DNA from: Acidobacteriota bacterium
GTDB lineage: Bacteria; Acidobacteriota; Thermoanaerobaculia; Gp7-AA8
Assembly (NCBI GenBank): GCA_003223645.1
Contig: QHVT01000004.1
Coordinates: forward strand, 123,334-187,333
Direction: 5' to 3'
DNA length: 64,000 nucleotides
Under the pieces are notes generated by a model. It saw only the letters and a list, made by a program, of their open reading frames with translations. It ran no database searches and had not been told where the DNA came from. Below are positions 2,419-57,033 of the stretch, piece by piece (within the stretch, counting starts at the first letter, position 1; each line of letters begins with the position of its first letter). A program made the translations under genes and the position numbers.

Positions 2419-2541
2419 ATGAAGGCAGAAGGCAGAAGGCAGAAGGCAGAAGGCAGAAGGCAGAAGGCAGAATATAGAACGCAGAACGCAGAACGCCAGT
2501 CTTCTAACTTCTGCCTTCTGCCTTCTGCCTTCTGCCTTCAT
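2419..2541. repeat. Tandem-arm inverted repeat, GCAGAAG type
   Basis: Begins ATGAAGGC and ends GCCTTCAT. The left arm is about six copies of the 7-bp unit GCAGAAG followed by a variant run GAACGCA. The right arm is the reverse complement, CTTCTGC repeated. Relatives with the same terminal octamers lie at 14982-15079 and 16358-16446, and a longer one at 47948-48117. The stop codon and last ten or so codons of the glycerophosphodiesterase gene lie within the right arm. Confidence 0.95.
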
Positions 2542-4734: not shown

Positions 4735-4740
4735 GAGAGA

Positions 4741-4797
4741 GTGCTGAGTGCTGGGTGCTGAGTCAACCCAGCACGCGGCACCCTGCACCAGGCACCG
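4741..4797. repeat. Tandem-arm inverted repeat, GTGCTGA type
   Basis: The left arm is three copies of a 7-bp unit (GTGCTGA/GTGCTGG). The right arm is the complementary CAGCAC/GGCACC run ending immediately before the GTG start of the cobalamin adenosyltransferase gene. A relative lies at 14226-14290. Confidence 0.82.
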
Positions 4798-4799
4798 TC

Positions 4800-5321
4800 G
4801 TGAAGATCTACACGCGCACGGGCGATCACGGCGACACCTCTCTCTTCGGTGGCACCCGCGTTCCGAAAAACGATCCGCGCATCGAGGCCTACGGCACCGT
4901 CGACGAGTTGAACTCGTTCATCGGACTCGCACGCGCGCATTCGCTGCCGCAATCCGTCGACGACGTGTTGCATCAGGTGCAAATCGATCTCTTCGAGATC
5001 GGCGCGCGTCTCGCCGCGCCCAACACCGATCGCTTCGCGGGCGTCGATGACGCGCGCATCACCGAATTGGAACAAGCGATCGACGCGATGGAGCGCGAGC
5101 TCGCGCCGCTCACGAGCTTTATCCTTCCCGGCGGCGCGCCCGCGGCCGCGCAGTTGCACGTCGCACGCACGGTATGTCGCCGCGCGGAGCGCTGCGTCGT
5201 ACCGCTGCACGATGATGCAACGATCACGTATCTGAATCGCTTGTCCGATTACCTCTTCGTGGCAGCGCGGTTTGCAAATCTGCGTGCGGGGCGAGAAGAC
5301 GTTCCGTGGAAGCGCCTATAG
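4800..5321 (+). CDS. PduO-type corrinoid adenosyltransferase
   Basis: Transfers the adenosyl group of ATP to cob(I)alamin, giving adenosylcobalamin (EC 2.5.1.17, PduO/MMAB family). The 173-residue protein has the N-terminal ATP-binding segment YTRTGDHGDTSLFGG, then YGTVDELNSFIGLAR. The cobalamin-side helices include FILPGG, ARTVCRRAER and LNRLSDYLFVAAR. The GTG at 4800 is chosen because the conserved YTRTGD begins at residue 3. Its TAG stop is the first part of the following palindromic element. No B12-dependent enzyme gene is in the window. Confidence 0.95.
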   Translation: MKIYTRTGDHGDTSLFGGTRVPKNDPRIEAYGTVDELNSFIGLARAHSLPQSVDDVLHQVQIDLFEIGARLAAPNTDRFAGVDDARITELEQAIDAMERELAPLTSFILPGGAPAAAQLHVARTVCRRAERCVVPLHDDATITYLNRLSDYLFVAARFANLRAGREDVPWKRL

Positions 5322-5400
5322 GACGTATAGGACTTGTACGACGTCGTAGGACTTCCTAGGATGTCCTATACGTCCTGGAGCGTCCTACGATGTCCTATAG
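5317..5400. repeat. Tandem-arm inverted repeat, TAGGACGTA type
   Basis: The left arm is a degenerate run of TATAGGAC/GTAGGAC units and the right arm is its complement (GTCCTATA). The outer ends are CTATAGGAC and GTCCTATAG. It fills the convergent gap between the adenosyltransferase gene and tRNA-Pro and contains the stop codon of the former. In this setting it could act as a two-way terminator, although no T-run is present. Confidence 0.88.
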
Positions 5401-6721: not shown

Positions 6722-6725
6722 GCAG

Positions 6726-6820
6726 GCTCAAAGGCGCATGGGCTCATAGGCGCATAGAGACTCTGAGCCTATGAGCCTATGAGCCCATGCGCCTATGAGC
6801 CTATGAGCCCATGCGCCTGA
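6726..6820. repeat. Tandem-arm inverted repeat, GAGCCTAT type
   Basis: The left arm uses complementary units (GGGCTCATAGGCGCAT). The right arm is about seven 8-bp units GAGCCTAT/GAGCCCAT/GCGCCTAT. It fills the convergent gap after the VWFA-like gene and overlaps the 3' end of pxpBC, whose last nine or so codons and stop are made of repeat units. Confidence 0.9.
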
Positions 6821-8115
6821 TTCACGACGAACCGCATCCGCTCGCCCGGCGCCAGCTGGGCGAGCTTCCACCGCTCGTCCGACAACACCGTCAGCACCTG
6901 CAGATAGCCGCCCGTGACGGGATGATCGGGACCCATCGCGACGAGACTGCCGTCCGGATGAAGCTGCACGGTTCCGCACTGCATGCCGAATGACTTGAGG
7001 TCCGCGGGGATCTTCACGTCGATCGGACGCATTGGCCGGAGACGAATGCCGACGCGATCGATCGACGGCGTGACTTCGCAATCGATCGTGCCGATCTCGA
7101 CGTCGTGCGGCCCGCGCATCGCGCGAATCACGCGATGGTCTTCGCGCGCGAACTCCGTGACGACGCCTTTGCGATTTCCCACCGCGAGATAACCGCGCAG
7201 CCCGTCCGTCACCCGTCCAAACGCGATCTCGTCTCCCGCGCGCACGCCTCGCACTTGATTGCACCACGCAACGACGCAGTCGCGGCGAAAGCGCAACCGC
7301 GGCCCCGACATCGCGCACTCGAGGAGCGGCGCATCGGACGGATTGCCGACCGCGCGATTCGCGAGCGCCGCCGCGGCGTCATCGAACGGCCCGCCGGGCG
7401 CGACGCCGCGATCGATGCGGCTCCAGTCCGGCGCGCCGACCAGCGTCGCCAGCGGAGCGGAGAGAACGTCCGCGTAGTCGAGCTGCAGCGGCGCCTTCTT
7501 CGGCGCCGGCGCGACGTGCACTTCGTCGACCGGCTCGATCACGATCTCATCGCCCGGCGCGATCGCATGCTCGACATTCGCGTCCGTCAGGCCGAGGAGA
7601 TTCCAACCGCCGGGAGTGTCGATCGGATAGAAGCCGGCAACCGAGCCCGCGATCGCAAACGACCCGCGCGCAACAGGACGCGACGTGGAACGGCGCGGCA
7701 TCGCCCACTCCGCAGGCCAGCCATCGAGGTAGGCGAAGCCGCCGCGGAAGCCGAGGTAGCGAGCCGTGAGCGTGATGCCGCGAACGCGCGAGAGAAATTG
7801 CTCGCGCGTTTGGTTGGTGCGGGCGAGAAACTCGTCTAAATCCGCGCCGGCGAATGCAACAGGCATTGTGGAGCGGCGGCCGCCCTCGGCCGCCGGATTC
7901 TCGCGAGAAATCGGCGGCCGAAGCGGCCGCCGCTCCACTAGTGTCTCGAAATTGGGCGTGCCCGCCCAAATCACATAAAGCGATGAATGCCCCGGAATGC
8001 ACGCCACCACACCCGGCGCTGCGCGAGCGCTCGCTGCGAACGCGTGCAACTCGGAAGCGGAAACGTCGCCGAGCTCGACCAACACCGCGCGGTCGCCCGC
8101 TGGAGCGAGATGCAT
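6793..8115 (-). CDS. pxpBC: Fused 5-oxoprolinase subunit B and C (PxpB-PxpC / KipI-KipA), with in-frame palindromic insertion
   Basis: Fusion of the two allophanate-hydrolase-like subunits that, with PxpA, cleave 5-oxoproline to glutamate using ATP. The PxpB part (about residues 1-215) starts GDRAVLVELGD and has RVRGITLTARYLGFRGGFAYL and GFYPIDTPGGWNLLG. The PxpC part (about 230-440) has SRIDRGVAPGGPFDDAAAALANR and GMQCGTVQLHPDGSLV. Residues 60-83 (VERRP...GRRST) are encoded by a family 2 palindrome at 7868-7938, inserted in frame between the N-terminal and main PxpB lobes. The last residues (GLIGS) come from another repeat. No pxpA is visible, so either it lies elsewhere or the protein has another amidolyase role. 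ATG 8115 begins a good PxpB N-terminus. Confidence 0.87.
   Translation of the reverse strand: MHLAPAGDRAVLVELGDVSASELHAFAASARAAPGVVACIPGHSSLYVIWAGTPNFETLVERRPLRPPISRENPAAEGGRRSTMPVAFAGADLDEFLARTNQTREQFLSRVRGITLTARYLGFRGGFAYLDGWPAEWAMPRRSTSRPVARGSFAIAGSVAGFYPIDTPGGWNLLGLTDANVEHAIAPGDEIVIEPVDEVHVAPAPKKAPLQLDYADVLSAPLATLVGAPDWSRIDRGVAPGGPFDDAAAALANRAVGNPSDAPLLECAMSGPRLRFRRDCVVAWCNQVRGVRAGDEIAFGRVTDGLRGYLAVGNRKGVVTEFAREDHRVIRAMRGPHDVEIGTIDCEVTPSIDRVGIRLRPMRPIDVKIPADLKSFGMQCGTVQLHPDGSLVAMGPDHPVTGGYLQVLTVLSDERWKLAQLAPGERMRFVVNQAHGLIGS
7868..7938. repeat. Palindromic element, family 2 (GTGGAGCGGCGGCCGC), inside pxpBC
   Basis: A 71-bp inverted repeat with ends GTGGAGCGGCGGCCGC and GCGGCCGCCGCTCCAC and a central TCGCGAGA palindrome. 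Other copies are at 37390-37460, 46418-46489 and 47589-47659. Here it lies within a coding sequence and is read through in frame. Confidence 0.95.
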
Positions 8116-12017: not shown

Positions 12018-12427
12018 CGCGAGATCACTCGCATGTCACTGCCGTCGACCAGCACGATGACGCCGGTTCGCGTCATGGTGTGGGGCAGGCTTTCCAGCCT
12101 GCCGCCCGGGGGACAGGTTGGAAAACCTGCCCCACACCGAGAAGGCTCAGTGAAGTGCGTCGCGCGAGGATAGAGGTAGTAGTTGAGAAAAATGCCGCGA
12201 TCGATGTCGCGCGGCCGCCGCAGCACGATCGTCACGGAGGCATCGCGCGGAATCTCGCTCGCGAGGCGTTGCATGACGACGTAGTCGCCGCCGAGAACGC
12301 GCTCGCGCCGCTCTTCGTATCGCAGCGGCAGCAGCGCCAGCGAATCGCGCACGAGCTGCACGTATTCATGTCCGCTGAACCAGATCGCGCAGGCAAACAG
12401 AACGGCCAGCGCGGGTCGTCGCATCAT
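12014..12427 (-). CDS. Hypothetical N-terminally anchored protein with in-frame palindromic insertion
   Basis: A 137-residue protein with one N-terminal hydrophobic helix (PALAVLFACAIWFSGH), then a soluble part (YVVMQRLASEIPRDASVTIVL, IFLNYYLYPRATHF, VIVLVDGSDMRVISR) predicted to be extracytoplasmic. Residues about 97-117 (RCGAGFPTCPPGG...) are encoded by a family 3 palindrome and interrupt what looks like a continuous alpha/beta domain. Its start overlaps the panC stop and its stop overlaps the next membrane protein start, each by 4 nt. It is probably an accessory protein of the two membrane glycosyltransferases. No family recognised. Confidence 0.65.
   Translation of the reverse strand: MMRRPALAVLFACAIWFSGHEYVQLVRDSLALLPLRYEERRERVLGGDYVVMQRLASEIPRDASVTIVLRRPRDIDRGIFLNYYLYPRATHFTEPSRCGAGFPTCPPGGRLESLPHTMTRTGVIVLVDGSDMRVISR
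12077..12138. repeat. Palindromic element, family 3 (GGTGTGGGGCAGGC), inside a coding sequence
   Basis: A 62-bp inverted repeat: GGTGTGGGGCAGG / CCTGCCCCACACC outer arms and inner GGCTTTCCAGCC. Relatives are at 26643-26706 and 50354-50450. It is read through in frame by the 12014-12427 gene. Confidence 0.93.
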
Positions 12428-14225: not shown

Positions 14226-14290
14226 GTGCTGCGTGCTGGGTGCTGCCTGCTGGGATTCGACTCAGCACGCAGTACTCAGCACTCAGCACA
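14226..14290. repeat. Tandem-arm inverted repeat, GTGCTGG type
   Basis: The left arm is four 7-bp units (GTGCTGC/GTGCTGG), the spacer is GATTCGA, and the right arm is CAGCACG/CAGTACT/CAGCACT. It occupies the gap between the deoxynucleoside kinase and panB. Related to 4741-4797. Confidence 0.88.
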
Positions 14291-14981: not shown

Positions 14982-15079
14982 ATGAAGGCAGAAGGCAGAA
15001 GGCAGAAAGCAGAAGTGAGAAAGGCAGCGCGACTCGCCACTTCTTACTTCTGCCTTCTGCCCTCTGCCTTCTGCCTTCA
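14982..15079. repeat. Tandem-arm inverted repeat, GCAGAAG type
   Basis: Begins ATGAAGGC, with arms of 7-bp GCAGAAG/GCAGAAA units and their complement, ending at GCCTTCA. It lies between divergent genes (deoxynucleoside kinase and M16 peptidase), so it sits where promoters should be and cannot be only a terminator. Confidence 0.93.
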
Positions 15080-15107: not shown

Positions 15108-16361
15108 ATGCTGTCCCTTGAGCAATACACGTTAGATAACGGGCTGAAGGTCGTCCTCAACGAGGACCATTCCGCCCCTCTCGTCGCGATCAATCTCTGG
15201 TACCACGTCGGCTCGAAGAATGAGCGGCCCGGCCGCACGGGGTTCGCGCATCTCTTCGAGCACATGCTGTTCTCCGGCTCGGAGCACGTCGGCAACAACG
15301 AGCATTTCCGCTACGTGCAGTCGGTCGGCGGTGTGCTCAACGGCACGACGTTCTTCGATCGCACGAATTACTTCGAGACGCTTCCCTCCAACTATCTCGC
15401 CCTCGGCCTCTGGCTCGAGTCCGACCGGATGGGCTTTTTTCTCCCCGCGCTGACGCAGGAGAAGCTCGACATCCAGCGGGAAGTCGTGAAGGAGGAGCGG
15501 CGCCAGCGCTACGACAACGTGCCGTACGGCACGGCGTTCGAGCGTTTACTGCGTCTCGGCTATCCGCCCGACTACTCGTATCACTGGCCGACGATCGGCT
15601 CGATGGAAGACCTCGGCGCCGCATCGCTCGACGACATCCGCGCGTTCTTCAGCACCTGGTATCGCCCCGACAACTGCACGCTGACGATCGTCGGCGACTT
15701 CTCGACGTCCGAGGCGAGGACGCTCGTCGAACAATACTTCGGCGACATCGAGCCGGGACGCTCGTTCCCGCCGTTCGATCTCCAGCGCACGCCCGCGTCC
15801 CACGAAGTGCGCGAGACGTTCGCGTCGCCCATCCAGCTGCCGCGCATCTATCGCCTCTATCACCTGCCGAAGATGGGCGAGGCGGAGTGGGTGCACGCGG
15901 ACTTGCTGACGACGATCGTCGCGTCGGACAAAGCGAGCCGTCTCGATCGCGCGCTCGTGCACGAACAGCAAATCGCGCAGGACGTGGCGATGTACGTGCT
16001 GCCGACCGAGTCGACCGGGATCGTGATGCTGCAGGCGACGGCGCGCGAAGGCGTGCAGATCGACGAGATCGAAGCAGCCATCGACGCCGAAGTCGCGCGC
16101 ATCGCGCTCGACGGCGTCACCGAAGACGAGCTCACGCGCGCGAAGAACCGCGCGGAGATCGAGTTTGCGCATCAGATCGAAACATTCGACGCGCGCGCGG
16201 ACCTGATTGGAATGATGTCGACGTACTTCGGCGATCCGACGATGGTCGATCGCTGGCTCGATCCGTATCGCGCCGCGTCCGCGGACAACCTCGCGCACAT
16301 CGCCAGGAAGTACCTGATTCCCGAGAATCGAGTGACTAGCCTGTTTGTACCGGAGATATGA
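15108..16361 (+). CDS. M16 zinc peptidase, catalytic subunit
   Basis: A 417-residue insulinase/pitrilysin-family (M16B-like) peptidase. The inverted zinc motif HLFEHM (HxxEH) is at about residues 48-52, within GRTGFAHLFEHMLFSGSEH. The downstream zinc Glu lies in the region VVKEERRQRYDN. The second half-domain (PRIYRLYHLPKMGEAEW, ADLLTTIVASDKASRL) is complete. No signal peptide follows ATG 15108. The next gene encodes the non-catalytic partner, so the pair probably forms a heterodimer, as in mitochondrial processing peptidase and Sphingomonas A1 enzymes. Confidence 0.93.
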   Translation: MLSLEQYTLDNGLKVVLNEDHSAPLVAINLWYHVGSKNERPGRTGFAHLFEHMLFSGSEHVGNNEHFRYVQSVGGVLNGTTFFDRTNYFETLPSNYLALGLWLESDRMGFFLPALTQEKLDIQREVVKEERRQRYDNVPYGTAFERLLRLGYPPDYSYHWPTIGSMEDLGAASLDDIRAFFSTWYRPDNCTLTIVGDFSTSEARTLVEQYFGDIEPGRSFPPFDLQRTPASHEVRETFASPIQLPRIYRLYHLPKMGEAEWVHADLLTTIVASDKASRLDRALVHEQQIAQDVAMYVLPTESTGIVMLQATAREGVQIDEIEAAIDAEVARIALDGVTEDELTRAKNRAEIEFAHQIETFDARADLIGMMSTYFGDPTMVDRWLDPYRAASADNLAHIARKYLIPENRVTSLFVPEI

Positions 16362-16446
16362 AGGCAGAAGGCAGAAGGCAGAAAGCAGAAGGAAGAAGTG
16401 ATTCGTTTCTCACTTCTGCTTTCTGCCTTCTGCCTTCTGCCTTCAT
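16358..16446. repeat. Tandem-arm inverted repeat, GCAGAAG type
   Basis: Perfect terminal octamers ATGAAGGC and GCCTTCAT enclose arms of GCAGAAG/GCAGAAA units. Its first four bases contain the TGA stop of the upstream peptidase gene. It separates the two M16 subunit genes. Confidence 0.95.
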
Positions 16447-16455
16447 CTAACTGCT

Positions 16456-17829
16456 ATGCCCATCGACCGCACCTCCGCACCTTCGCCCGCGCCGCCGCGC
16501 CCGTATCACTTCCCGCACGTCACGCGGAAAACGCTGCCCAACGGATTGCGCGTGCTCGTCGCGGAGAACCACAACGCTCCGCTGCTGTCGCTGCGCGCGC
16601 TCGTGCGCTCCGGGGCGGATCACGACACGCTGGAGACCGCGGGACTCGCCTCGATCGTCGCCGACATGCTCGATGAAGGCGCGGGCTCGCGCGACGCGAT
16701 CCGGCTCGCCGAGGACGTCGGACTCCTCGGCGGCGCCCTCGGCACGGGCGCAGATTGGGACGCGTCCTACATCACTCTCGATGTGCTGAGCCGCAACGGC
16801 GTCGATGCGGCGGCGATTTTCGGCGACGTCACCGCGCGCGCGACGCTGCCCGCGGACGGACTCGAGCGCGTGCGCGCGGAGCGGCTCAACGAAATCCTCC
16901 AGCAGCGCAACGAGCCGGCGGCAATCGCCGGCAAGCGATTCGCGAATTTGTTGTACGGCACCGGCGCGTACGGCAACTCGATCATCGGCAACGCCGACAG
17001 CGTCTCGCGACTGACGCTCGATCACGTGCAGCGCTTTTATCGAGAGCACTACCTGCCGAACAACAGCGCGATCGTCGTCTCGGGCGACATCGACTCCAAT
17101 GATGCGCTGACGCTCGTCGAACGCGCCCTCGGCGACTGGGCGCGCGCCGAAGAACCGCCGCGACCGAACGTCGCCTCCCGCGCGATCGATCGCTCGCGCA
17201 TCTACGTCATCGATCGCCCGCAAGCCGTTCAGTCGGAGATCCGCGTCGGCCACATCGGCGTCGCGCGATCGTCCGAGGACTACTTCCCGCTGTCCGTGAT
17301 GAACGCCATCTTCGGCGGTGTCTTCAACTCGCGCATCAATCTCAACCTGCGCGAGCGCCACGGCTACACCTACGGAGCAAGATCGCAGTTCGCGTTCCGC
17401 CGGCAGGCCGGCCCCTTCGTTATCGCCGCGCCCGTGCGCAACGAAGTCACGCGCGAGTCAGTCGAAGAAATGCTCATCGAGCTCCGCCGCATCCGCACCG
17501 GCGACATCGAAGACCCCGAGCTCGACGACACGAAGTCCTACCTGATGGGCGTCTTCCCCGCGACGGTGCAAACGGCGTCCGACATCGCCAGCCGCCTCGT
17601 CGACATGGAACTGTACGGACTCCCCGAGGACTACTTCGACCGCTACCGCGAGAACATCGCCGCGGTATCGAAAGACGACATCGCGCGCGTCGCGAACAAA
17701 TACCTCGACCCCGATCGAGTGCTGATCGTGATCGTCGGCAACGCACAGGAAATCCGCGAGCCGTTAGGCGCGCTGGGGTTGCCGCTGCACGAGCTGGATA
17801 TCGAGGGGAATCAGTTAGCGGTGGGGTGA
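16456..17829 (+). CDS. M16 peptidase, non-catalytic partner subunit
   Basis: 457 residues with the M16 fold. The zinc motif is lost: where HxxEH is expected the sequence reads ASIVADMLDEG. The substrate-clamping Arg-Tyr pair of the other half is kept in LRERHGYTYGARS (about residues 300-312), the usual division of labour in two-subunit M16 enzymes. NGLRVLVAENHNAP near residue 30 and NAIFGGVFNSRINL are family-typical. It lies downstream of the catalytic subunit gene, separated by a repeat, and ends against another palindrome. Confidence 0.92.
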   Translation: MPIDRTSAPSPAPPRPYHFPHVTRKTLPNGLRVLVAENHNAPLLSLRALVRSGADHDTLETAGLASIVADMLDEGAGSRDAIRLAEDVGLLGGALGTGADWDASYITLDVLSRNGVDAAAIFGDVTARATLPADGLERVRAERLNEILQQRNEPAAIAGKRFANLLYGTGAYGNSIIGNADSVSRLTLDHVQRFYREHYLPNNSAIVVSGDIDSNDALTLVERALGDWARAEEPPRPNVASRAIDRSRIYVIDRPQAVQSEIRVGHIGVARSSEDYFPLSVMNAIFGGVFNSRINLNLRERHGYTYGARSQFAFRRQAGPFVIAAPVRNEVTRESVEEMLIELRRIRTGDIEDPELDDTKSYLMGVFPATVQTASDIASRLVDMELYGLPEDYFDRYRENIAAVSKDDIARVANKYLDPDRVLIVIVGNAQEIREPLGALGLPLHELDIEGNQLAVG

Positions 17830-17831
17830 AC

Positions 17832-17892
17832 CCGAGGAGAGCGGGCATCCTGCCTGCCTCCGGGGGGCGGGCGGGACGCCCGCTCTCCTCGG
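17832..17892. repeat. Palindromic element, family 1 (GAGAGCGGGC type)
   Basis: A 61-bp copy with ends CCGAGGAGAGCGGGC and GCCCGCTCTCCTCGG. It exactly fills the convergent gap between the M16 partner gene (stop at 17829) and the MbtH-domain gene (stop at 17893). Confidence 0.95.
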
Positions 17893-19517: not shown

Positions 19518-19520
19518 ACG

Positions 19521-19594
19521 ATGGCGGATGGCAGATGGCAGATGGCGAGCAACACGCTTCTGCCATTCGCCATCTGCCATCTGCCATCCGCCAT
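19521..19594. repeat. Tandem-arm inverted repeat, GGCAGAT type
   Basis: Ends ATGGCGGATGG and CCATCCGCCAT. Each arm holds three or four 7-bp units GGCAGAT or ATCTGCC around the spacer AACACGCTTC. It lies between divergent mtnA and gapA, 17 nt upstream of the gapA ribosome-binding region, so it is probably transcribed in the gapA leader. Relative at 2100-2170. Confidence 0.95.
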
Positions 19595-19617
19595 CTGTTT
19601 CCAGGAGGTCTGCTGCC

Positions 19618-22496: not shown

Positions 22497-22561
22497 GTTG
22501 CGCAGTTACGCGGTCGCGCGGCAAACCACCGAGCGACTGCGCAAACGCGTAACCGCGCAAC
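22497..22561. repeat. Tandem-arm inverted repeat, GTTGCGCAG/CGCGCAAC type
   Basis: Ends GTTGCGC and GCGCAAC, with inner GTTACGCGG against CGCGTAAC. It fills the gap between the CYTH and nucleotidyltransferase genes. Related to the CCGCGCAA array at 51893-51984, which shares the GCAGTTACGCGGTCGC start. Confidence 0.85.
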
Positions 22562-23599: not shown

Positions 23600-24103
23600 C
23601 CTCCAAGCCACCAAGCCTCCTGGCCTCCTGGTCCTCACCGCCTGGTAGATCGATTTAATGGACCATGGTCCCGATTTGATCGAGCATGGTGTTGATTTGA
23701 TGGACCACGGTGTTGATTTGATGAACCACGGTGTTGATTTGACGGACCATGGTGTTGATTTGATGGACCCGTAGTGATGATTTGATGGACCCACGTGTTG
23801 ACTGGATAGACCACTAGTGATGATTTGATGGACCACGGTGTTGATTTGACGGACCATGGTGTTGATTTGATGGACCAGTAGTGATGATTTGATGGACCCA
23901 CGTGTGGATTGGATAGACCACTAGTGATGATTTGATGGACCCACGTGTTGATTGGATATACCACTAGTGATGATTTGATGGCTCACGTGTTGATTGGATA
24001 GACCACCAGTCGTGATTTGATGGACCACGGTGTTAAATGGACCACGGTGTTAATTGAATAGACCATCAGTCGTGATTTGATGGAGGCTGGGAGGCTCGGA
24101 GGC
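23599..24103. repeat. Minisatellite of about twenty 21-22 bp units within inverted-repeat arms
   Basis: From about 23651 to 24084 the DNA is a tandem array of units such as GATTTGATGGACCACGGTG plus TT, alternating with variants ending CCACGTGTT and CCACTAGTGAT (often starting GATTGGATAGACC). In the second half the variants alternate to give a 43-bp higher-order period. The array is more AT-rich than its surroundings. It is framed by complementary arms: GCCTCCAAGCCACC... at 23599-23631 and GGAGGCTGGGAGGCTCGGAGG at 24082-24103. No spacers are unique, so it is not CRISPR. No convincing gene lies in this 529-bp stretch. Confidence 0.92.
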
Positions 24104-24112
24104 CGGCTCCGT

Positions 24113-26642: not shown

Positions 26643-26706
26643 GGTGTGGGACAGGCTTTCCAGCCGGTCCTCCGGGGGGCGCAGGCTGGAAAGCCTGCGC
26701 TACACC
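26643..26706. repeat. Palindromic element, family 3 (GGTGTGGGACAGGC)
   Basis: A 64-bp inverted repeat with GGTGTGGGACAGGCTTTCC and GGCTGGAAAGCCTGCGCT arms ending TACACC. It fills the convergent gap between ndk and rlpA. Confidence 0.93.
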
Positions 26707-37389: not shown

Positions 37390-37460
37390 GTGGAGCGGCG
37401 GCCGCCCTCGGCCGCCGACCACTCGCGAGATCCCGGCGGCCGAAGCGGCCGCCGCTCCAC
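37390..37460. repeat. Palindromic element, family 2
   Basis: A 71-bp copy with central TCGCGAGA. It spans the whole convergent gap between the GT39-like gene (stop 37386) and clpB (stop 37461). Confidence 0.95.
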
Positions 37461-46403: not shown

Positions 46404-46417
46404 CGCTGGTTCATTCA

Positions 46418-46489
46418 GTGGAGCGGCGGCCGCCCTCGGCCGCCGATTTCTTGCGAGAGGCCGGCGGCCGAGGGCGGCCGCCGCTCCAC
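46418..46489. repeat. Palindromic element, family 2
   Basis: A 72-bp copy between rlmN and the 112-residue orphan gene, with central TTGCGAGA (one change from the common TCGCGAGA). It fills nearly all of the 89-bp gap. Confidence 0.95.
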
Positions 46490-46492
46490 TAG

Positions 46493-46966: not shown

Positions 46967-47817
46967 CTACTTGTTCTCGCCCGAGACCGCTCTCTTCCAC
47001 GATTCGGACCAATACGCCAGGTACTTCCACTTGCCCCACTTCCGGTAGCGGCGGAGCATCGTCGCGTCGCTGACGCGGCGGCCGCCGTGATAGCGGTTGC
47101 GGACGAAGCTGCGGAACTCCGTGTCGACGGCGATGAAGTCGTGACGGCCGTCCATCGCCAGGAGGTGGGCCGCGCCGTACGGACCGATGCCGGGCAGGGA
47201 AAGATAGAACTTGTAGCGGTCTTCGGTGCTGGCGGGAAGCGTCGAGAGGTCGCACGATGCGAGCGCGTGGATCGACTTCGCGCGATAGCCGAGGCGGCAG
47301 TCGGACTGCAGCTCGTCGACGGTGAAGCGCGCGACTTCTTCCTGCGTCGGAAAGACGCCGCCGCATTTCGCGACGAGGAGCTCGATCATGCGGACGGTCT
47401 GTCGCCAGGTCGTGTTCGTCGTGGCGATGATCTTGACCGCGTCTTCCCACAACGTCGCGCCGCAGAGGAGACGTCCGAAGCCGGCGCGCGCGACCCACGC
47501 ATGCGCGGGCGAGTCGCGCGAGAGCTCGACGAACCCGGCAATGTCGACGTCGAGCTGGAACATACGCCTGATGCGCTCGCGAAGCTCTGTGGAGCGGCGG
47601 CCGCTTCGGCCGCCGGAATCTCGCGAGAGAGCGGCGGCCGAGAGCGGCCGCCGCTCCACAAGAAGCGCACCGTCAACGCACGAAATCTCCAGCTCCCCAT
47701 CCCGCTCGCGGCGTCGCAGCACGCCTTCTTCGCGCGACCAGCGGAACGGCGCGAGCCTGTACCAGCCATGCGACTCGACGGTCGTGGCGAAGACGAAGTC
47801 GTTGGGAACGGGAAAGT

Positions 47818-47947: not shown

Positions 47948-48117
47948 GAAAGCAGAAGGCAGAAGGCAGAACGCAGAACGCAGAACGCAGAACGCAGAAC
48001 GCAGAAATGAGAACCGAGAACTTCAGCAATCGTAACTTCTAACTCCTGCCTTCTGCTTTCTGCCTTCTGCCTTCTGCTTTCTGCCTTCTGCTTTCTGCCT
48101 TCTGCCTTCTGGCTTCA
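47948..48117. repeat. Long tandem-arm inverted repeat, GCAGAAG/GCAGAAC type
   Basis: A 170-bp element. The left arm holds 7-bp units GCAGAAG, then five GAACGCA units. The right arm is a longer run of CTTCTGC/TTTCTGC units ending GGCTTCAT. It sits between divergent tRNA-Cys and the HEAT-repeat gene. The largest member of this family in the window; the arms differ in length. Confidence 0.93.
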
Positions 48118-51892: not shown

Positions 51893-51984
51893 GCAGTTAC
51901 GCGGTCGCTCGGAACTGCGGAACTGCACACCGCGCAACCGCGCAACCGCGCAACCGCGCAACCGCGCAACCGCGCAACCGCGGA
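51893..51984. repeat. Tandem repeat of 8-bp CCGCGCAA units with inverted start
   Basis: Starts GCAGTTACGCGGTCGC, as in the element at 22497-22561, then at least seven perfect CCGCGCAA units. The left part is complementary to the right units (GTTACGCGG against CCGCGCAAC). It fills the convergent gap and ends at the stop of the V4R-like gene. Confidence 0.92.
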
Positions 51985-56762: not shown

Positions 56763-57033
56763 TGCGTCATCTTGAGCGGAGGCACTGCGCGATGCGCATT
56801 TGTCGAGCAAAATGACAGCCCCTCACCCGGCGCTTCGCGCCACCCTCTCCCGCAAGGAGGAGAGCGGGCATCCTGCCCGCCTCCCGGGGGGCGGGCGGGA
56901 CGCCCGCTCTCCTCCTTGCGGGGGTGGCCGAAGGCCGGATGGGGGCTGTCATTAGAAGTCGCGTAGACGGCGAAAGATCTCAATCTACGTAACCTGAGAT
57001 CCTTCGCCGCGCTTCGCCGGCTCAGGATGACGT
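56763..57033. repeat. Three-layer nested palindrome
   Basis: Outer layer: GCGTCATCTTGAGCGG near 56764 against CCGGCTCAGGATGACG near 57016-57031. Middle layer: GACAGCCCCTCACCCGGC (56815) with CCACCCTCTCCCGCAAGG, against CCTTGCGGGGGTGG...CCGGATGGGGGCTGTC (to 56950). Inner layer: a family 1 copy (56862-56915). The 489-bp convergent gap between the tyrosinase-like gene and chrB holds nothing else I can recognise. Confidence 0.88.

Follow-up and report, generated by a model that had tools for sequence, protein, structure and literature searches.

Dispersed intergenic hairpins with arms of tandem heptads in an acidobacterial genome and its sister species

Heptameric intergenic repeats are already known from cyanobacteria, Xanthomonas and Beggiatoaceae, and there is no accepted account of their origin. 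Elhai and colleagues are said to have described in 2008 a cyanobacterial class, the small dispersed repeats (SDR), which are very small, apparently mobile and situated near heptameric repeats. The heptamers of Xanthomonas have the form GGGAATC or GGGANTN, with GGGGA(C/T)T as the form in Nostoc (Rehm et al., 2015; PMC4692102). About 90% of the Xanthomonas repeats are intergenic, mostly between co-oriented genes, they differ in length and sequence from one sister species to the other, and 70 and 75 inverted pairs of GGGANTN, termed convergent, were counted per genome (PMC4692102). The P6b element of the Nostoc trnL(UAA) group I intron carries heptads of Class I (TDNGATT) or Class II (NNTGAGT) (PMC4476775). 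The TAACTGA repeats of Beggiatoaceae are direct, with a single inverted case reported (PMC4679880). A search of the literature by motif strings yielded nothing relevant.

In the present case a dozen families occur in one genome that has a syntenic sister species. The sister species helps to separate the making of the hairpins, seen in presence or absence, orientation and ends, from their upkeep, seen in unit number and mirrored changes, and the origin and paired upkeep of such stems become directly testable in a bacterial lineage. The limits of the comparison are home-made gene calls, few orthologous pairs, two species without an outgroup, and stretches of the sister genome that were in part selected for hairpins.

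Hairpins of the window

The window is a stretch of 64 kb within the genome of a soil bacterium, 6.38 Mb in 51 contigs (G000); the sister species (G001) belongs to the same genus. A first-pass annotation of the window had claimed an inverted repeat of tandem units at 2419-2541, which was confirmed and located at 2418-2542. Its left arm consists of 10 GGCAGAA units and its right arm of 5 TTCTGCC units, with ATGAAGGC and GCCTTCAT at the ends. The arms (2415-2459 and 2501-2545) are 93% complementary, and the DNA folding energy is -49.7 kcal/mol compared to a mean of -18.6 for shuffled sequence (z = -12.1). The 3' end of a GDPD gene falls in this hairpin, whose right arm encodes, at 2504-2542, the predicted C-terminus of the protein (DEGRRQKAEGRS) and the stop codon. 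At the matching site of G001 there is a hairpin with different units (C23rc 1618-1745).

Three further loci have arms of the same kind. At 14983-15079 there are five GGCAGAA units per arm, and the G001 site holds a hairpin in which both arms are changed. The hairpin at 16358-16446 separates two peptidase M16 genes, which abut in G001, where the site is empty. The TGA within its ATGAAGGC end seems to provide the upstream M16 gene with a new stop codon. At this locus (16344-16456) the hairpin also separates a GGAG from the next start codon, the two being adjacent in G001, and the stem, if folded, could restore the spacing between them. The hairpin at 47953-48111 has unlike arms, with five CGC units (CGCAGAA) on the left and alternating GGC and AGC units on the right. 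Terminal octamers had been reported as common to four loci; of the four GGCAGAA loci, only two (2418 and 16358) carry them exactly at both ends, and a third (14982) does so at the left end.

Other families are represented as well. GGCAGAT hairpins lie at 2103-2169 and at 19520-19595, the latter upstream of a GAPDH gene and replaced in G001 by a short gap. A weak GTGCTGA hairpin is found at 4739-4796 and a second one at 14226-14289, where the matching G001 site is occupied by a GATGAAC hairpin of an unrelated family. A TAGGAC-type hairpin with units of 9-10 nt and a variable spacer (5315-5400) corresponds to 12 bp in G001. Arms of 8-mers are seen at 6724-6818 (AGGCTCAT/AGGCGCAT), at 22497-22561 (GTTGCGCG, 6 bp in G001) and at about 51893-51982 (GTTGCGCG, with some 2 units on the left and some 7 perfect units, ACCGCGCA, on the right). 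There are about a dozen such hairpins in the window. The units named earlier were thus recovered, GGCAGAA, GGCAGAT, GTGCTGA and TAGGAC as such, GAGCCTAT as AGGCTCAT and CCGCGCAA as GTTGCGCG. The statement that unit numbers vary but the arms remain complementary needs qualifying: the numbers are often strongly unequal (10 and 5 at 2418, about 2 and 7 at 51893), and the arms at 47953 use different unit types.

The window holds other repeats. Palindromes of GTGGAGCGGCGGCCGC occur at 7868-7938, 37390-37460, 46417-46490 and 47588-47660, and also at the locus L100 elsewhere in the genome. Two dispersed, REP-like families are formed by GGAGAGCGGGCGTCCCGCCCG palindromes (479-539, 17832-17892 and 56844-56927, the site at 479-539 being short in the sister genome) and by GCAGGCTTTCCAGCCTGC palindromes (12077-12138 and 26643-26706). 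Between the apparent arms of a CAGCCTCC 8-mer hairpin, units of 21 bp (GATTTGATGGACCATGGTGTT) form an array of 430 bp (23600-24110).

Dispersal, orientation and proposed spread

A scan of 1.22 Mb of G000 gave 370 inverted repeats, of which 137 have periodic arms, with a period of 7 nt in 81, 8 nt in 40 and 9 nt in 16. Hairpins are far more abundant than expected by chance: in 344 kb of contig, 111 inverted repeats scored at least 14 compared to 6 in a first-order Markov copy. The units fall into about a dozen families of 7-9 nt, the main ones being GGCAGAA, CGCAGAA, AAGCAGA, GGCAGAT/GGCGGAT, GTGCTGA, GAATTGA, GGATGAA, AGGCTCAT, GTTGCGCG, CAGCCTCC and TAGGACNNA; the GATGAAC family was seen in G001. 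According to home-made gene calls, periodic hairpins are intergenic in 86 of 97 cases (about 89%), and 37 of the 97 lie within 30 nt of both neighboring genes. The 86 are divided among co-oriented, divergent and convergent gene pairs in the proportions of all gene pairs (61, 15 and 10, compared to 522, 113 and 112), with no preference for gene 3' ends. Non-periodic palindromes, unlike periodic ones, favor convergent pairs.

The two genomes share long collinear stretches, with nucleotide identities of about 70-85% in matched blocks. For 53 hairpins of G000 both flanks could be matched in G001; the G001 site held a hairpin in 6, was unclear in 6 and was empty in 41. In this two-species comparison the empty sites may reflect either insertion in G000 or loss from G001. 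Many of the empty sites are clean stop-to-start codon junctions. Conversely, G001 has hairpins that are missing from G000. A hairpin was found at the G000 site for five of nine G001 hairpins (six with a looser partner criterion); for five or more of nine, P = 0.003 if independence and 0.13 hairpin per junction are assumed. This excess indicates that the sites in common were either inherited from the ancestor or preferred. The density in G001, 21.5 per Mb, is if anything an overestimate, since some stretches were chosen for hairpin matches. Within the family, G000, G007 and G014 are rich in hairpins, and G001 and others are poor in them. At three shared sites (2418, 14983 and C21 90946) the boundaries match within a few bases and the two species have different units in both arms, for example GGC GGC GGC AGC GTG compared to TGA CGC CGC TGA TTG, with right arms that match.

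The orientation of the arms is fixed. The unit precedes its reverse complement in 147 of 149 paired arrays, a count that includes some overlap between related families, the exceptions being one AAGCAGA pair and one GAATTGA pair. By family the counts are 34/34, 40/40, 9/9, 14/14 and 17/17, and GGCAGAA is the 5' arm in every case. The reverse order of GGCAGAA was not found in 54 genomes, 41 from relatives and 13 from other groups; the normal order gave 29, 37, 12, 2, 1 and 1 overlapping matches in six relatives and is also carried by the 13 genomes from other groups. For GTGCTGA, no reverse order was found in eight genomes. The order of unit and reverse complement in a hairpin is unchanged by the direction of insertion. 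A fixed order is what is expected of copies that descend from one hairpin, and it argues against recurrent fold-back at array ends, which should yield both orders. A universal rule placing purines in the 5' arm was considered and dropped because two genomes, L056 and L052, have the GAAACCA unit in opposite orders; the order thus seems to be inherited within lineages rather than dictated by sequence. The ends recur as well: ATGAA precedes GGCAGAA in G000, at 15 of the 25 arm starts listed from the wider genome, and TGAATGAAGAA precedes CGCAGAA in G001.

Insertion is supported by hairpins nested in the loops of others (g0R 229896, g0R 243164 and C21 160065). The palindrome in the loop of the GGCAGAA hairpin at G000:C29:353229-353409 (g0R 229896-230076) reads GTCATCCTGAGC...GCTCAGGATGAC. 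There is no target duplication, matches of at least 4 nt being found in 9.5% compared to 8.1% with shuffled partners, which rules out a MITE of a DDE transposase. Two G001 copies at different sites have loops that are 92% identical. Loops are mostly unique, which speaks for a small number of recent copies, and similar pairs (23, compared to 8 by shuffling) were judged weak as proof of recent copying. A mobilizing enzyme was sought and none was found; a search of G001 for a Y1 transposase gave no match.

The reading we favor on balance, with modest confidence, is that the hairpins are non-coding palindromic elements, small and dispersed, that resemble REPs or SDRs, have heptad arms and spread as whole hairpins, after which the arms drift independently, with occasional template switching. 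Whole hairpins would enter intergenic gaps without target duplication, presumably as single-stranded hairpin DNA handled by some enzyme, although replication errors could also be the means of copying. Spreading is likely limited to copies that still fold, so that the palindromic consensus of a family would be kept even as its units change. Once a hairpin is in place, each of its arms would gain, lose and mutate units separately by slippage, and a template switch inside the hairpin could now and then mirror a change into the second arm.

Thermoanaerobaculia and Acidobacteria gp7 are among the labels given to related genomes, and GGCAGAA hairpins occur in assemblies labeled Acidobacteria, Chloroflexi, Bacteroidetes, Nostoc, Kuenenia and others. 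Near the GGCAGAA and GTGCTGA loci of other genomes further heptad units are abundant, with a period that is nearly always 7. GGCAGAA in several phyla was not accepted as proof of horizontal transfer, since with many heptad families and many genomes some coincidence is expected. The one suggestive case is the Chloroflexi-labeled JACQUR assembly (L044, L255 and L257), in which GGCAGAA hairpins and 36 GTGCTGA hairpin matches are found together; GTCGACA, GAATGAT and GGTTGGA heptad hairpins were also noted in it. A doubtful extension is that heptad-arm hairpins form cross-phylum mobile DNA moved by a hairpin-handling system, with both arms rewritten together at orthologous sites such as 14226 and genomes drifting jointly from unit to unit.

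Correspondence between the arms and the alternatives

Each family has a consensus that is palindromic and specific to the species. Written as the triplets of the NNNAGAA units, it is ATGAA-GGC-GGC-GGC-GGC-GTG in both arms in G000 and TGAA-TGA-CGC-CGC-TGA-TTG in both arms in G001, and the species-specific order of units recurs at many unlinked loci. The numbers of units in the two arms are uncorrelated: they are equal in 7 of 21 hairpins of G000, compared to 5.9 by shuffling, and in 11 of 21 of G001, compared to 10.6. Departures from the consensus in the NNNAGAA arms of both species are mostly one-sided. In G000 the variable triplets of the two arms agree well at units 1-4, counted from the outside, and in 1 of 15 cases at unit 5 next to the loop; in G001 unit 3 shows high agreement, unit 5 low agreement, and the remaining units (1, 2 and 4) agree in about one half of cases. 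An arm agrees with its own partner more often than with a shuffled one (0.527 compared to 0.324, and 0.515 compared to 0.445, the value of 0.515 being reached in 20 of 2000 shuffles), and this excess is due in part to subfamilies (GGC, CGC and AGC). In the GTGCTGA, AGGCTCAT and GTTGCGCG families, tested with arrays detected on each strand separately rather than by complementarity, the two arms of a hairpin resemble each other no more than arms taken from different loci do.

The first-pass annotation had attributed the paired arms to hairpin-templated copying, on the ground that slippage alone would break complementarity. This ground was mistaken: slippage duplicates a unit that already pairs, so complementarity can survive without copying from arm to arm, and complementary arms of tandem units need not imply such copying. 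The mechanism itself is well known. Quasipalindromes are mutated by template switching (PMC8794818; PMC8604942; PMC7202029), which has been established elsewhere as both a maker and a keeper of hairpins (PMC8794818; PMC8604942). In its general form, the nascent strand folds back onto an array and copies it, and template switching makes and equalizes the arms at each locus. Several changes are of the kind it predicts: the differences in both arms at the three shared sites, the TGC and GGA variants mirrored in both arms of C23rc 1618 and missing from the copy with the 92% identical loop, a GGCACAA unit mirrored in both arms of L081 2044, and the agreement of own arms above shuffled ones. As a general cause it is nevertheless unlikely, in view of the fixed orientation, the uncorrelated unit numbers, the unlike arms at 47953-48111 and the three families whose own arms are no closer than foreign ones.

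Comparison of orthologous loci for mirrored or one-sided changes, proposed earlier as a check, was made with the sister species and a few orthologous pairs; some changes are mirrored and most are one-sided. Two orthologous pairs of hairpins from other genera, L078/L038 and L079/L080, are about 82% identical. In the first, the loop is remodeled and the arms are about 98% kept, a sign of constraint or correction; in the second, one copy has gained units in its left arm. The differences between arms in both pairs are almost all one-sided, which again argues against fold-back copying as the rule. Correction by template switching within the hairpin probably takes place at times.

The kept arms of L078/L038 and the position of many hairpins at gene ends would also suit a second explanation, that these are RNA or DNA hairpins selected as mRNA stabilizers, terminators or ribosome spacers, with pairing kept by compensatory mutation. 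We consider it quite improbable because the sites are mostly empty in the sister species, unrelated units can occupy one site (14226) and, unlike terminators, the hairpins show no preference for gene orientation. Intrinsic terminators in particular were rejected on gene orientation and because no T run follows the stems in G000. Intrastrand triplex motifs (PMC4666352) were set aside by description alone, as the units are not homopurine.

An explanation as ordinary REPs or REPINs mobilized by a RAYT (Y1) transposase is very improbable. The hairpins too are small intergenic palindromes without target duplication, and several RAYTs occur in related genera; however, the GTAG/CGTC tag is absent (4 and 2 of the 137 hairpins, with a median of 3 over all tetramers), and the only RAYT gene of G000 (L100) has on both sides several copies of an unrelated GTGGAGCGGC REP, of the family found in the window at 7868, 37390, 46417 and 47588. 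These two findings led us to reject the explanation, and G001, with no Y1 match, has many CGCAGAA hairpins. An assembly artefact, which repetitive inverted DNA in a 51-contig draft might suggest, is hardly credible, since most hairpins span 60-160 bp within unique flanks, the class was found independently in many assemblies and some sites are common to G001.

Comparison with known systems

The TAACTGA repeats of Beggiatoaceae resemble the present units as intergenic 7-nt repeats common to distant phyla, and differ in being direct. REPs and REPINs with their RAYTs (PMC3116915; PMC3733652) are likewise small, dispersed extragenic palindromes with family-specific stems; the present hairpins differ in their tandem-unit arms, in the absence of the GTAG/CGTC tag and in that no associated RAYT was found. 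Closer in construction is the Nostoc P6b stem, which is made of mutually complementary 7-nt repeats, in which unit numbers change on one or both sides and the unit class of the whole stem can switch at one orthologous site (PMC4476775). That stem is a single locus in a self-splicing intron, whereas here there are hundreds of intergenic loci.

With the Xanthomonas heptads the hairpins share tandem, degenerate, intergenic 7-nt units (here a period of 7 in 81 of 137, including the NNNAGAA units) and the pairing of two arrays in convergent orientation only. Xanthomonas has one G-rich unit capable of forming quadruplexes; the present genome has about a dozen families side by side, with units of 7, 8 and 9 nt, and GGCAGAA, GTGCTGA, GAATTGA and similar units have no tracts of three Gs. 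The Xanthomonas repeats lie mostly between the same genes in both species, whereas most sites here are empty in the sister species, and the hairpins described here, unlike the Xanthomonas heptads, have recurring ends.
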